Assembly (NCBI GenBank): GCA_035765895.1
Contig: DASTWL010000042.1
Span: forward strand, 1 to 64,000
DNA from: Verrucomicrobiia bacterium
GTDB taxonomy: Bacteria > Verrucomicrobiota > Verrucomicrobiia > Limisphaerales > DSYF01
Direction: 5' to 3'
DNA length: 64,000 nt
Shown here: in pieces, positions 53,511 through 63,692 of the stretch
Layout: each line of letters begins with the position of its first letter
Position numbering within the stretch: the stretch's first letter is position 1
Translations under genes and position numbers: made by a program
Notes under the pieces: generated by a model
The model's database searches: none
What the model was told of the DNA's origin: nothing
The model's input: only the letters and a program-made list of their open reading frames with translations

Positions 53511-55400
53511 ATGGCCACGAAGAACATCCTAGTGGCGATCGCGGACGCGCAGGCGGTCGTTGAAATCGATCAAGCCCTCGGCGAGGAGTGGCTGACGACG
53601 CCGGTTGCCAGTGAGGCAGATGCGCTGGCGTTGCTGGACGCCGGTTCGTTTGACGCGCTCCTGGTCGATTTCAATCTGGGCGAGCCCGACGCCAGTGAAT
53701 TGCTCAATCAATCCCTCGTGAAGTGTCCCAAAATGACACGTTTCATGCTGGCGTATGAGGCAGACCTCGCGTTGATCGCAGCCAAGGTGGAGGGTGACCA
53801 CGAGATTTTGCCCCAGCCGCTGGAGATGGCCGCGCTGAAAAGCCGGATTGAAAACAGCCTGGCCAGCCCGAAGGCCGGCGCGGTCAAACCGCAAAACCCT
53901 TCGGCCGGTTCCACGGAAGATGAAATTTCTCACGTTTACGCGGAAGTGCTCCAGGCCCTGGAATCGTCCACGGTTTCGTGCCGGCAGATCGGCGCCATCA
54001 TTGGTCACGACGCGGCCCTGACGCAGGAAGTCTTGCGACTGACCCGGTCGGCCTACCTTGGCCTGCCCGGCAACATCACCAACCCGATCGAGGCCGTGGA
54101 AGTGCTGGGGTTGGAGACAGTAAAGGCGGTCGTCATGGCCCGCCGGTTTCTCGACGAACACCGCCACCTGAACTCCTGTTACCTGTCGCCCGACAAACTC
54201 TGGCAGCACAGCCTCAACGTGGCGCAGATTGCGCGCGACCTCGTGTTGTTCGAAACCAGGAACCGCGCGCTGGCGTCACAGGCACTCGCCGCCGGTTTGC
54301 TGCACGACCTCGGCAAAATCGTGCTGGCCACCAACTTTGATGACCTTTACGGCCGCGTTCATTCGCTGGCCCGCAAACAGCCGGTCGCGCTTTGGGATGT
54401 GGAAAAGGAAATGTTCGGCGCGAATCACGGCGAAATCGGCGCCTGCCTGCTGGGCATGTGGAACATGTCCGGCGACATCGTCGATGCCGCCGCGTTCCAT
54501 CACGAACCGCCGCTGGGCGAGCACAATCAACTGACCCCGCTGGCGGCCGTTCACATTGCGAATGTGCTGGAACACCAGCTCCGACCGGACAACGAGTTCC
54601 AGGTGCTGCCCGTGGTGAGCACGCCGTTCCTCAACCAGCTCCATCTGTTGCAACGATTGCCCGTCTGGCGCGCCACTTTCGCAAATCAGCGGTCACCCGA
54701 AAAACCGGCTCAACCCGCCGACGCACCGGCCTCCCAAACCGGCAATCAGCTTCCCGGTCCGGCCACTGCAACCTGGACCAGCACGGCAGCACCGGAAAAC
54801 GAACCACAACGAACAGCATCCTCAACGTCTCGCTCCCAAACGCGCGGCCGGGTTTACGCCGGAACGATCGCGGCGGCTCTCCTGCTGGCCGCGGCACTGT
54901 TCCGCCTCAAATGGAGTTCCGACGATTCAGTGTCGGTCAACGCCCGAACCCTCGAACATGCGGAGCCCGCCGTGGCCGGCTTCCCCGCTCCATCGCTCGA
55001 ACCAGCCCTCGCGCCGGCTCCCGAAGTCGCCGCCACGACCGATCTCGCACCAGCGGCGCCCACGCCAACATCAGACCTCGCTTCCAATGCGCTGCCTGAA
55101 GTCGTCGCACTCGAACCGGCGGCCGTGGCAGCACCGCCGGTGATTGCCGAAGCGGCCGTGACCAACGCTGCGCCCGACACCACCGCGTCCGCGAGCGTGG
55201 CACCCGTGAAGGCCGAAGGACCGACGTTCAAACTCAACGGCATTTTCTACGGGGGCAGCAATCCCTCGGCGATTGTGAACGGCAAGGCCGTGGCGGTCGG
55301 TGAATCCGTGAATGGCGCCACCGTCATCCGCATCGGCCAGAGCGAAGTGACCCTGGACCTCCATGGCGAACACCAAATCGTGCGCCTGCCGGTCCGCTGA
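53511..55400 (+). CDS. Receiver-HDOD protein fused to a TM helix and GspB/GspC-like domain
   Basis: 629 residues. Residues 1-115 are receiver-like (LLVDFN with Asp53), though the acidic pair is weak. HDOD domain about 140-340 (VEVLGLETVKAVVMARRF; LAAGLLHDLGKIVLATNFDD; AAAFHHEPP). A variable linker is followed by a membrane helix at about 449-467, an Ala/Pro-rich spacer of about 100 residues and a compact C-terminal domain at 572-629 (FKLNGIFYGGSNPSAIVNGK, then VGESVNGATVIRIGQSEVTL). That last domain has the pattern of the periplasmic GspB (T2SSB) or PilP/GspC region. So a cytoplasmic signalling part is joined to a periplasmic secretion-type part. Domain order is seen; the secretion link is inference. 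Confidence 0.75.
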   Translation: MATKNILVAIADAQAVVEIDQALGEEWLTTPVASEADALALLDAGSFDALLVDFNLGEPDASELLNQSLVKCPKMTRFMLAYEADLALIAAKVEGDHEILPQPLEMAALKSRIENSLASPKAGAVKPQNPSAGSTEDEISHVYAEVLQALESSTVSCRQIGAIIGHDAALTQEVLRLTRSAYLGLPGNITNPIEAVEVLGLETVKAVVMARRFLDEHRHLNSCYLSPDKLWQHSLNVAQIARDLVLFETRNRALASQALAAGLLHDLGKIVLATNFDDLYGRVHSLARKQPVALWDVEKEMFGANHGEIGACLLGMWNMSGDIVDAAAFHHEPPLGEHNQLTPLAAVHIANVLEHQLRPDNEFQVLPVVSTPFLNQLHLLQRLPVWRATFANQRSPEKPAQPADAPASQTGNQLPGPATATWTSTAAPENEPQRTASSTSRSQTRGRVYAGTIAAALLLAAALFRLKWSSDDSVSVNARTLEHAEPAVAGFPAPSLEPALAPAPEVAATTDLAPAAPTPTSDLASNALPEVVALEPAAVAAPPVIAEAAVTNAAPDTTASASVAPVKAEGPTFKLNGIFYGGSNPSAIVNGKAVAVGESVNGATVIRIGQSEVTLDLHGEHQIVRLPVR

Positions 55401-56977: not shown

Positions 56978-57061
56978 CCGGCACGGCTCCCCTGCCCTTC
57001 GTAACGCGCCACGCCACAATCCGGGCTTGTGCCCGCAGGCCCGTTGCGTCAAACCACCCGC

Positions 57062-57955
57062 ATGACGATTCGTTGCTTTATCGTCGCTGCAACTTTGACC
57101 GCCATGAGTTTTTTCTCCGGATGCTCCACCGTGCCATCGTCGTCGTCGCGTGCGTTCGACCGCTATGAACTGGGCTACGACACGCCCGTGGATCCGGCTT
57201 TGCAGGCCGGCCTGGAAGCCCTGGATGACCGCCTGCGCGCCCGGTTCGGCATGACAGCCGATCAGACCGCGGCCGGCGTGCTGGATTTGAACACGCTGCG
57301 GCTGGCGCTGCTTCGGCCCGATCATGAAGACTACGCCGCCAGCGTGCCGAAAATCGGCATTTTGCTGGCCTACTTTCAACTGCATCCCGCGGCGGCCACG
57401 AATCTCGATGCGCCGACGCGCCATGAACTGGGCGAGATGATCAAGCAATCCAGCAACGAAATGGCCGCCAAGTATTCCCGCCTGCTGGGGTTGAAGCGGA
57501 TTCAGGCTGTGCTGGACTCGTATCAATTCTACGACGCGCAGCACGGTGGCGGCATCTGGGTGGGCAAGCATTACGGTTCCGACGACGAACGCTATCCGGA
57601 TCCGGTCGGCGGCAATTCCCACGCGGCGACCGTGCGCCAGTTGTTGCGCTATTACCTGCTGCTGGAACAGGACCGGTTGGTGTCCCCGGCCGCGTCGCAA
57701 ACCATGCGCGAGATTTTTGCCTCACCCGACATCCCGCACCGGGACGACAAGTTCGTAAAAGGGCTGGCCGGCCGCGACGTGCAGGTGCGTCGCAAAGCCG
57801 GCTGGTGGGAAGATTGGTTTCACGACACTGCCGTGGTCACAGGCGACGGACGGCATTACCTCATCGTCGCCCTGACGCATCATCCGCGCGGCGACGACTA
57901 TCTGGTTGAATTCGCCAGGGGCGTTGATGATTTGCTGGCTGGCCCGGTCAAATAA
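57062..57955 (+). CDS. Beta-lactamase-like serine hydrolase lipoprotein
   Basis: 297 residues with lipobox FSGC (Cys21). Penicillin-recognising fold: SxxK as SVPK (94-97), an SxN-like Ser-Ser-Asn (130-132) and KxG as Lys245-Ala-Gly247. The order and spacing match class A enzymes (beta-lactamase2 family), but the KTG Thr is Ala, so cephalosporin or penicillin hydrolysis is uncertain. A cell-wall or other serine hydrolase role is possible. Confidence 0.82.
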   Translation: MTIRCFIVAATLTAMSFFSGCSTVPSSSSRAFDRYELGYDTPVDPALQAGLEALDDRLRARFGMTADQTAAGVLDLNTLRLALLRPDHEDYAASVPKIGILLAYFQLHPAAATNLDAPTRHELGEMIKQSSNEMAAKYSRLLGLKRIQAVLDSYQFYDAQHGGGIWVGKHYGSDDERYPDPVGGNSHAATVRQLLRYYLLLEQDRLVSPAASQTMREIFASPDIPHRDDKFVKGLAGRDVQVRRKAGWWEDWFHDTAVVTGDGRHYLIVALTHHPRGDDYLVEFARGVDDLLAGPVK

Positions 57956-61831: not shown

Positions 61832-62704
61832 TTAAGGATTCACTTCCCGGTAGAGCGGATTCCAAATGATGTCGGGGTTGAGCGGCTCATTGCCATTGGC
61901 CTGCTGATTGTTGATGTAAGACTGCTTGTAGTAGGCCGAGTGTCCATCCATGAACACAAGTATGCCGCCAAGCTTGTTGTGACGTTTCGGGAATGCGCGC
62001 CAGCGAGCCGCCGGGTTCACCGAGTAATACGGGTTTGCCGGCCCCTCGGTGGAATCAAAATACTGATCCGTCATGAACACGGTGGACGAGGTTTTGGAGA
62101 TCGCCACGATTTTGAGCATTTGAGGATAGGGATAGGTTCCCGCACTGACCCCGGAAGGGTCCGATTTCTTCAGATCAATGTTCATTACGATGCTAAAAAA
62201 ACCGTTTGCACCGCCTCCACTCACGTTTTGGATGTCACTTGCGGGCATGCTGGCGGCAGGGCAGTGCCATATCTTTCCAACACCGCCTGGGAACGGCATG
62301 ACCTGCGCGTTGTTTTGCGGGTTGCTGCCAACATTCACCGCATAGACCCGCAGCGCCTTCTCGCCCACCAGTTCCGGCAACAGGTTGAACCAGGCGTTTG
62401 GATCGAAAGCGGTGCCTGTCTGAACACCATTGTATGTGTTTCCTGGGTATTGGCCGTTTTGCCCCATGCCGTCGCGCGGCATCCGGTCGCTGTTGTCACC
62501 CACATAAATTTGAAGCGCCAGCCCCCATTGGCGTTGATTGGAAAGACAATTTGCCGTCCTCGCTTTATCCTTCGCCTTGGACAAGGCGGGCAGGAGCATG
62601 GCGGCAAGGATCGCGATGATGGCGATGACGACCAGCAGCTCGATAAGGGTGAACGCCCGCGTCTGGACTCGGGCACGGTTGGCACACGGCTTCTCTTTTG
62701 GCAT
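61832..62704 (-). CDS. Pseudopilin-like protein (prepilin N-terminus, C-terminal DG-H motif)
   Basis: 290 residues from ATG 62704. Prepilin signature [20 protein letters not shown], then a GspG-like helix ([19 protein letters not shown]) and a C-terminal [15 protein letters not shown] motif typical of the family amplified in Verrucomicrobiota and Planctomycetes. Processed by a prepilin peptidase and possibly secreted through type II secretion. It lies 50 nt before the Ig-like protein on the same strand. Confidence 0.85.
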
Positions 62705-62939
62705 ACCTAACTGATTGACTCCTCTGCGCTTCACTCCCGGCGCGTCACTCCCGCGCTGCTGGCAGCAAAATCGAGCGAACCCTAGTCGCATCAAACGGGC
62801 TTGGCAAGTGGTTGGCGTTACGAATGGGTGAAAAGTTATCAGCACACTCTTCACAGCCCATGAAAGCAGACAATCAAAGGTGCAGCACCATCAGAATCCC
62901 TTCACCCTTCCGCCAAATCCGCTACTGCGCCGCGCGGAT

Positions 62940-63623
62940 TCAGTCGGGCAGCCAGCGCAGTTCGGTGTTGTTGGTGCGGGCCTTGTTGGCCGCCAAATCC
63001 CAGTAGGCAGACACGCCGAAGCGCTGGGCGTGGCCGTCCAAAAAAGTGAATTGCGCGCCGGCACTGTGAAGGTTGGTATGGACGTAGGTCCAGGAGCCGA
63101 CGGCGGGCAGGTTCTTGGAATCAAACAGCCAGACCGTCGGGGTGGGATGCGGAATCGAGGTCAGCCGCCGGGGCAGATTGGCCGCGCCGGTGCCATTGAC
63201 GTTTTCGTTGAGGCAATAATGGAACAGGTTGTTGCCATTGCTGCGGCGTTTGTTGCTCGGGCAAATCCAGACCGAACGGCCCGGATCGGCGTTCGCATCC
63301 TTGCGCCAGGGCTGGTCGTGGTAACGCGGGAGCCCGAGGGTTTGCGGGAGTTGAATATACCAGCCGGTGTTGGTGGCGGTATCGCTGGGATTGGGCGTGC
63401 CGTCTGGTGGCAGGAAATCGCTGTTGTCGCCCGCGTAGAGCTGCGTCGCGAGCCCCCATTGCTTGAGATTGTTGAGGCAGAAGACGGCGTTGGCCTTTTC
63501 CTTCGCCTTGCCCAGAGCGGGGAGCAGCAGCGCCGCCAGAATCGCAATGATGGCAATGACCACCAGCAGTTCGATCAGCGTAAACGCGGCGGGCCGGGAA
63601 GTTCTGGGAATCACTCGTCGCAC
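62940..63623 (-). CDS. Pseudopilin-like protein (prepilin N-terminus, C-terminal DG-H motif)
   Basis: 227 residues from GTG 63623. [20 protein letters not shown], then [19 protein letters not shown], and [16 protein letters not shown] near the C-terminus. Paralog of the preceding gene, which it follows in the same orientation 236 nt apart; the mature domains differ strongly. Confidence 0.85.
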
Positions 63624-63692
63624 GGCTCTGATTACGACTGCACCCTAACGAGCACGGCCAGCCGGCGCAAGGCTCTGCCCAGCTCCCGCCCC

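Follow-up and report, generated by a model that had tools for sequence, protein, structure and literature searches.

The stretch of DNA analysed here (64,000 nucleotides, hereafter the window) carries an open reading frame which runs from an ATG at 53511 to a stop codon ending at 55400 (53511-55400, +, stop codon included) and encodes a protein of 629 aa. Its predicted layout, a receiver-like (REC) domain, an HDOD domain, a transmembrane (TM) helix, an Ala/Pro spacer and a compact last domain of the GspB or PilP/GspC type, raises the question whether a signalling protein has been joined to a part of a secretion machine, and what such a fusion would do. The domain order was borne out by Pfam, by comparison with relatives, by AlphaFold and by hydropathy, and full-length orthologues exist. 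The predicted borders match to within some residues, the last domain, a homology region (HR), being placed at residues 573-626.

Domain organization of the fusion protein

When the 629-aa protein was scanned with Pfam, HDOD alone exceeded its threshold. Because both end domains were below threshold in this sequence, receiver and HR were checked by other routes, including an AlphaFold model of the whole protein, made with related sequences, and a model of the HR, made from its single sequence.

The receiver-like domain (residues 4-118; 53520-53864, +) is degenerate. It scores 11.9 bits in the whole protein and 16.2 bits with the N-terminus scanned alone, against a cut-off of 30.2, and is clear in relatives, most of those aligned over the full length reaching 38-63 bits; the model shows a (beta-alpha)5 order over the same residues. 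Asp53 is the only residue of phosphorylatable receivers that is kept: Ile10-Ala11 replace the acidic pair, Ala81 is found at the Ser/Thr switch and Gln102 at the Lys position. Among the proteins of the fusion clade the acceptor Asp is present in 11/15 and the Lys in 12/15. The switch position is Ala in 15/15 of them and Ser/Thr in 32/44 related REC-HDOD proteins, counts which come from related sequences and are, hence, not independent. Since the switch residue is Ala throughout the clade, the receiver is probably something other than an ordinary phospho-switch, as judged from these residues.

The HDOD domain, with its C-terminal helices, covers residues 136-394 (53916-54692, +), modelled as an all-alpha domain. 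The PF08668 match (residues 139-333) reaches 144.6 bits, with a cut-off of 22.9, and HDOD relatives are found in PDB (3hc1, 3p3q, 3ljx, 3m1t). The window protein keeps H233, H265-D266, H306 and H330-H331; H233, H265-D266, H306 and H330 are kept in all 15 clade rows, and the HD features are common to non-fused REC-HDOD paralogues. Asn351 lies at a position where an Asp is, we assume, usual in HD domains. The window protein sequence (FHHEPPLGEHNQLTP) has no GYP motif after the HD motif, and an HD-GYP phosphodiesterase reading was rejected, the motif being missing. HDOD domains are described as similar to HD-GYP domains but devoid of phosphodiesterase activity, and their mechanistic role is not established; SadB, which bears an HDOD domain, binds c-di-GMP (PMC6543031). 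For the domain studied here we expect binding of a ligand or a partner, rather than cleavage of c-di-GMP.

A single TM segment was identified by hydropathy at residues 448-466 (VYAGTIAAALLLAAALFRL; 54852-54908, +), the hydrophobic stretch being spanned by a model helix at 439-469. Beyond it the model is disordered to about residue 576, with beta strands thereafter. The linker (about 105 residues; 54909-55226, +) is rich in Pro, Ala, Thr, Ser and Val, which make up a fraction of 0.70 of its composition, and has low pLDDT; we infer that it is periplasmic. The HR itself (55227-55388, +) is assigned by profile, fold and similarity to GspB sequences. A single TM segment and a Pro-rich linker ahead of the HR, seen here by hydropathy, composition and modelling, are also the arrangement of GspB.

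Relationship of the last domain to GspB

The T2SSB (GspB) profile matches the whole protein with 15.5 bits and the C-terminus alone with 19.4 bits. The profile check thus stays below the cut-off of 28.4 in the window protein, as it does for the true GspB of the same genome, and passes it in a relative (L007, 29.0 bits). CdsD_C and Y4YQ_C, from type III secretion rings, were also considered for this domain and gave weaker matches than T2SSB. Folded alone, the HR was modelled with a pLDDT of 76 and a pTM of 0.61. When the model was compared by Foldseek with 350,542 PDB chains, the first three ranks were taken by GspC (3oss), GspB (4wfw) and Legionella LspC (7oio), while the PulC HR and PilP ranked lower. 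The E-values are weak (0.05-1.1), as is expected for 75 residues, with probabilities of 0.93-1.00 for the top three, whose agreement does not look like chance. A search of all PDB sequences with an HR-family profile placed OutC (2lnv) first (E=0.0025) and also listed 3oss and 4wfw; phmmer with the HR alone gave no match in PDB.

No unrelated family was found to match better than these folds. Three routes, profile, fold and similarity to the true GspB of the order, support the identification of the C-terminal 55 or so residues as a homology region of the GspB/GspC type. Of the families named in the original prediction, GspB and GspC are upheld, PilP being less apt than GspB.

An HMM was built solely from the HRs of fusion proteins and searched against the open reading frames of the fetched loci. 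It finds the ordinary GspB proteins of the order at E-values of 1e-16 to 1e-21. These are short proteins, starting with MSLINDALKRA, with one TM segment, a Pro-rich stretch and a terminal HR; for several of them an open reading frame for a GspA-like ATPase lies before. Fusion HRs are 36% similar to GspB HRs and 34% similar among themselves; being as near to GspB HRs as to each other, they mark the TM-linker-HR half as a GspB-type tail. A tree of the HR alone did not resolve the branching over its 55 columns.

The genome of the window has its own gspA-gspB pair, on contig C67. A search of this genome with T2SSB at default threshold gave no match, and was not taken as absence because the controls were silent too. 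On the same contig (L218:1488-3669, -) the pair is followed by a gene which, by eye, encodes a membrane protein like CPBP-type proteases, and the order gspA-gspB-membrane protein gene recurs in three other genomes (G089, G051, G045).

An HR is also found at the C-terminus of a thioredoxin-like protein in a different genome (G107, contig 402; L050:1444-2517, -), so the HR is a mobile module in the order, and for the same reason may have partners other than GspD.

Distribution and origin of the fusion

The same architecture was sought in other genomes and found in 13/320 genomes of the order, with two copies interrupted or fragmentary, and in two genomes from another family of the class. Alignments matched over the full length in 12/320 genomes of the order; one of these copies, that of G003, has an internal stop codon. 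In addition, a masked contig of G036 contains a fragment with HDOD and HR. G655 apparently has two copies. A single-protein search of the genome contigs database gave no matches, and an alignment-based search of genome contigs yielded HDOD proteins from many phyla, in which the HR HMM recognized no convincing HR.

The best orthologues, with full-length identities of 56% and 50%, belong to another family, and the combination of TM segment, linker and HR persists in orthologues with 26-56% identity. Three genomes of the window's own family were sampled and the fusion was not found in any of them, an absence which is weak evidence because the genomes are mostly draft assemblies; in the nearest of them, G089, a 444-aa REC-HDOD protein without the tail is present. 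As to whether the fusion might be unique to this genome and absent in close relatives, it is thus missing from the three genomes of its own family and present in 12 others of the order and in the two of the class.

The fusions group together in a tree built on the REC-HDOD part, requiring 4 changes against 9.4 in shuffles, with 0/500 shuffles as low. Named relatives (Pedosphaera sp., Verrucomicrobiales) are interspersed in the tree with sequences of the order, which suggests that the genome of the window belongs to Verrucomicrobiota. Constraining the ten fusions and two HR-less neighbours to stay together improved the likelihood by 24 units over that of an unconstrained quick search (p-AU 0.898), a test which is no proof of a clade, the tree being a quick one with long branches. 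The two clade members without HR (L009 in G034, L016/L071 in G038) keep the TM segment, one stopping right after it and the other ending within the linker; the HR is accordingly dispensable in some species. One origin followed by two later losses of the HR is the simplest reading of these sequences, and the tree is compatible with it.

A fusion by chance, or one decaying without function, might also show a patchy distribution, two HR-less members and a copy interrupted by a stop codon, as in G003. We regard this as very improbable, since the HR is kept down to 26% identity, the HD histidines are invariant in 15/15 rows and the clade extends beyond the order.

Putative role and relation to known systems

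The gene lies next to those for an M32 peptidase and for menaquinone biosynthesis. Neither gspA nor gspS was found near it, no type II secretion system (T2SS) or pilus genes flank the fusion gene in any relative examined, and no neighbours are conserved, except for a block common to two class members of one family. Elsewhere in the window, a serine beta-lactamase-family protein (PF13354, 46.7 bits) is encoded at 57029-57955 (+), flanked by a MarR-family regulator and an MFS transporter. Two open reading frames (61835-62890 and 62943-63644, -) are similar to a protein of L067 with a prepilin-type N-terminus; pseudopilin-like proteins of this kind could be clients of secretin systems.

The genome of the window encodes two secretins bearing an N0 domain of the GspD type, for which PF21305 reaches or exceeds its cut-off (contigs C50 and C73), together with a pilMNO(P)Q set, in which a PilP-like gene (L161:8118-8597, contig C92) stands before a PilQ-like secretin gene. 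A further secretin, with TPR repeats, is found on contig C34 (L164:7974-13912, -) beside small inner-membrane proteins, which we take to recall the Amuc_1098-1102 pilus-like cluster of Akkermansia. N0 secretins are present in 15/15 carrier genomes and in the fusion-less genomes looked at, so that this co-occurrence does not discriminate.

In three carriers (G660, G484, G435) the fusion HR is the sole GspB-like HR found, which led us to drop the idea that the fusion always accompanies a separate GspB, and which would fit a working GspB. Most carriers, the genome of the window included, have a separate GspB-like protein too, and in these the fusion is not needed for the role of GspB.

The reading that we prefer, with a probability of roughly 55%, is that of a GspB-like membrane tether, which would hold the pseudo-receiver-HDOD module at a GspD-type secretin and adjust the latter on a cytoplasmic signal; both the partner and the direction of signalling are what we infer from the parts. 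The protein would be a single-pass inner-membrane protein, its predicted orientation placing the N-terminal half in the cytoplasm and the C-terminus in the periplasm. The TM-linker-HR half would do the job of GspB, the linker giving the HR access to the N0 ring of a GspD-type secretin, to which it would bind. Pseudo-receiver and HDOD would replace the short cytoplasmic tail of GspB, and an HDOD that binds a ligand or a partner would be held at the cytoplasmic base of a secretin apparatus, be it a type II secretion system or a related one. A cytoplasmic signal might, in this direction, adjust the assembly, anchoring or use of the secretin. In Dickeya, the OutB HR binds the OutD N0 domain, as seen by pulldown, NMR and cross-linking, and the HRs of GspB, GspC and PilP are all reported as binders of secretin N0 (PMC9239104). 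By analogy, it appears reasonable to connect cytoplasmic signalling with a secretin, because the Dickeya GspB HR binds N0 and the genome of the window has two N0 secretins. More tentatively, the protein could be a transmembrane signalling subunit dedicated to secretin machines, which, through its REC-HDOD half, would recruit the secretin, release it or report on its state.

Signalling could run in reverse, with occupancy of a secretin by the HR (free, assembling or secreting) altering HDOD binding and, in turn, expression or motility. The anatomy would be the same as for the tether; HDOD proteins of Pseudomonas and Xanthomonas regulate motility or attachment (PMC6543031), and a receiver without switch residues need not be the input, which could be periplasmic. 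The long flexible linker, however, favours tethering or clustering over transmitting a shape change, which some 105 disordered residues would convey poorly, and the protein has no output domain (DNA binding, kinase or cyclase), so that we hold this direction to be unlikely. The HR might also be a mere anchor, holding REC-HDOD at the envelope or cell pole through a non-secretin partner, for instance a periplasmic or peptidoglycan-linked one, with no link to secretion. The HR on the thioredoxin-like protein, the lack of T2SS neighbours in the relatives examined and the two clade members with a TM segment and no HR would agree with this; OutB, moreover, attaches to peptidoglycan as well, so that such proteins may have several roles (PMC9239104). 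Yet the HR is nearest to that of GspB, a family reported, like GspC and PilP, to bind secretin N0 (PMC9239104), and we consider a pure anchor improbable.

Among known systems, GspB/OutB/ExeB (T2SSB, PF16537) have a single TM segment and a long Pro-rich periplasmic linker too, and their C-terminal HR agrees in family and fold with that of the window protein. GspB of the order differs in its short MSLINDALKRA cytoplasmic tail and its place beside gspA, where the window protein has a 440-residue receiver-HDOD half. The closest precedent is Alteromonas GspB, which has a cytoplasmic DUF3391 added, a domain otherwise found as a companion of HD-GYP signalling proteins (PMC9239104; PMC12943098), and fusions of DUF3391 to T2SSB are recorded in InterPro (PMC12943098). 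DUF3391 is, however, no HD domain, whereas here an HD-superfamily domain and a receiver share one chain, in another phylum; judging by the differing domains, the window fusion is apparently independent of that event.

The same genomes are rich in REC-HDOD response regulators that lack a TM segment. These are homologous over residues 1-390 and have the same HD histidines, but the chain of most of them stops at about residue 400, without TM segment, linker or HR, and they differ in the switch residue (Ser/Thr in 32/44 against 0/15). Aspartate-less receiver proteins, in which Verrucomicrobia are rich, also have degenerate receivers often joined to HDOD (PMC4395418), whereas the window protein and 11/15 of its clade keep the phospho-acceptor Asp and lose other switch residues. 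The fold of the HR is shared with GspC and PilP. GspC usually continues with a PDZ domain or coiled coil and is encoded in the gsp operon, while the PilP gene lies in pilMNOPQ. The window chain, unlike GspC, ends with the HR and lacks gsp neighbours, and the PilP-like protein of its own genome is the product of a different gene (L161:8118-8597).

A GspB with a signalling-related cytoplasmic domain has, therefore, precedent, and the novelty lies in the signalling half, which is different and more complete here, and in its occurrence in another phylum. A literature search, the coverage of which left out many subscription journals, gave no account of a REC-HDOD-HR protein. To our knowledge, post-transcriptional signalling inputs into type II secretion are poorly known. 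An HDOD domain and an HR of the secretin-binding type in one chain give the fields of HDOD proteins and of type II secretion a testable handle. If the tether reading holds, the protein would be a direct, one-protein link from second-messenger or receiver-type signalling to type II secretion or pili, and its sequence suggests an as-yet-undescribed way to tie cell signalling to the secretion or pilus machinery.
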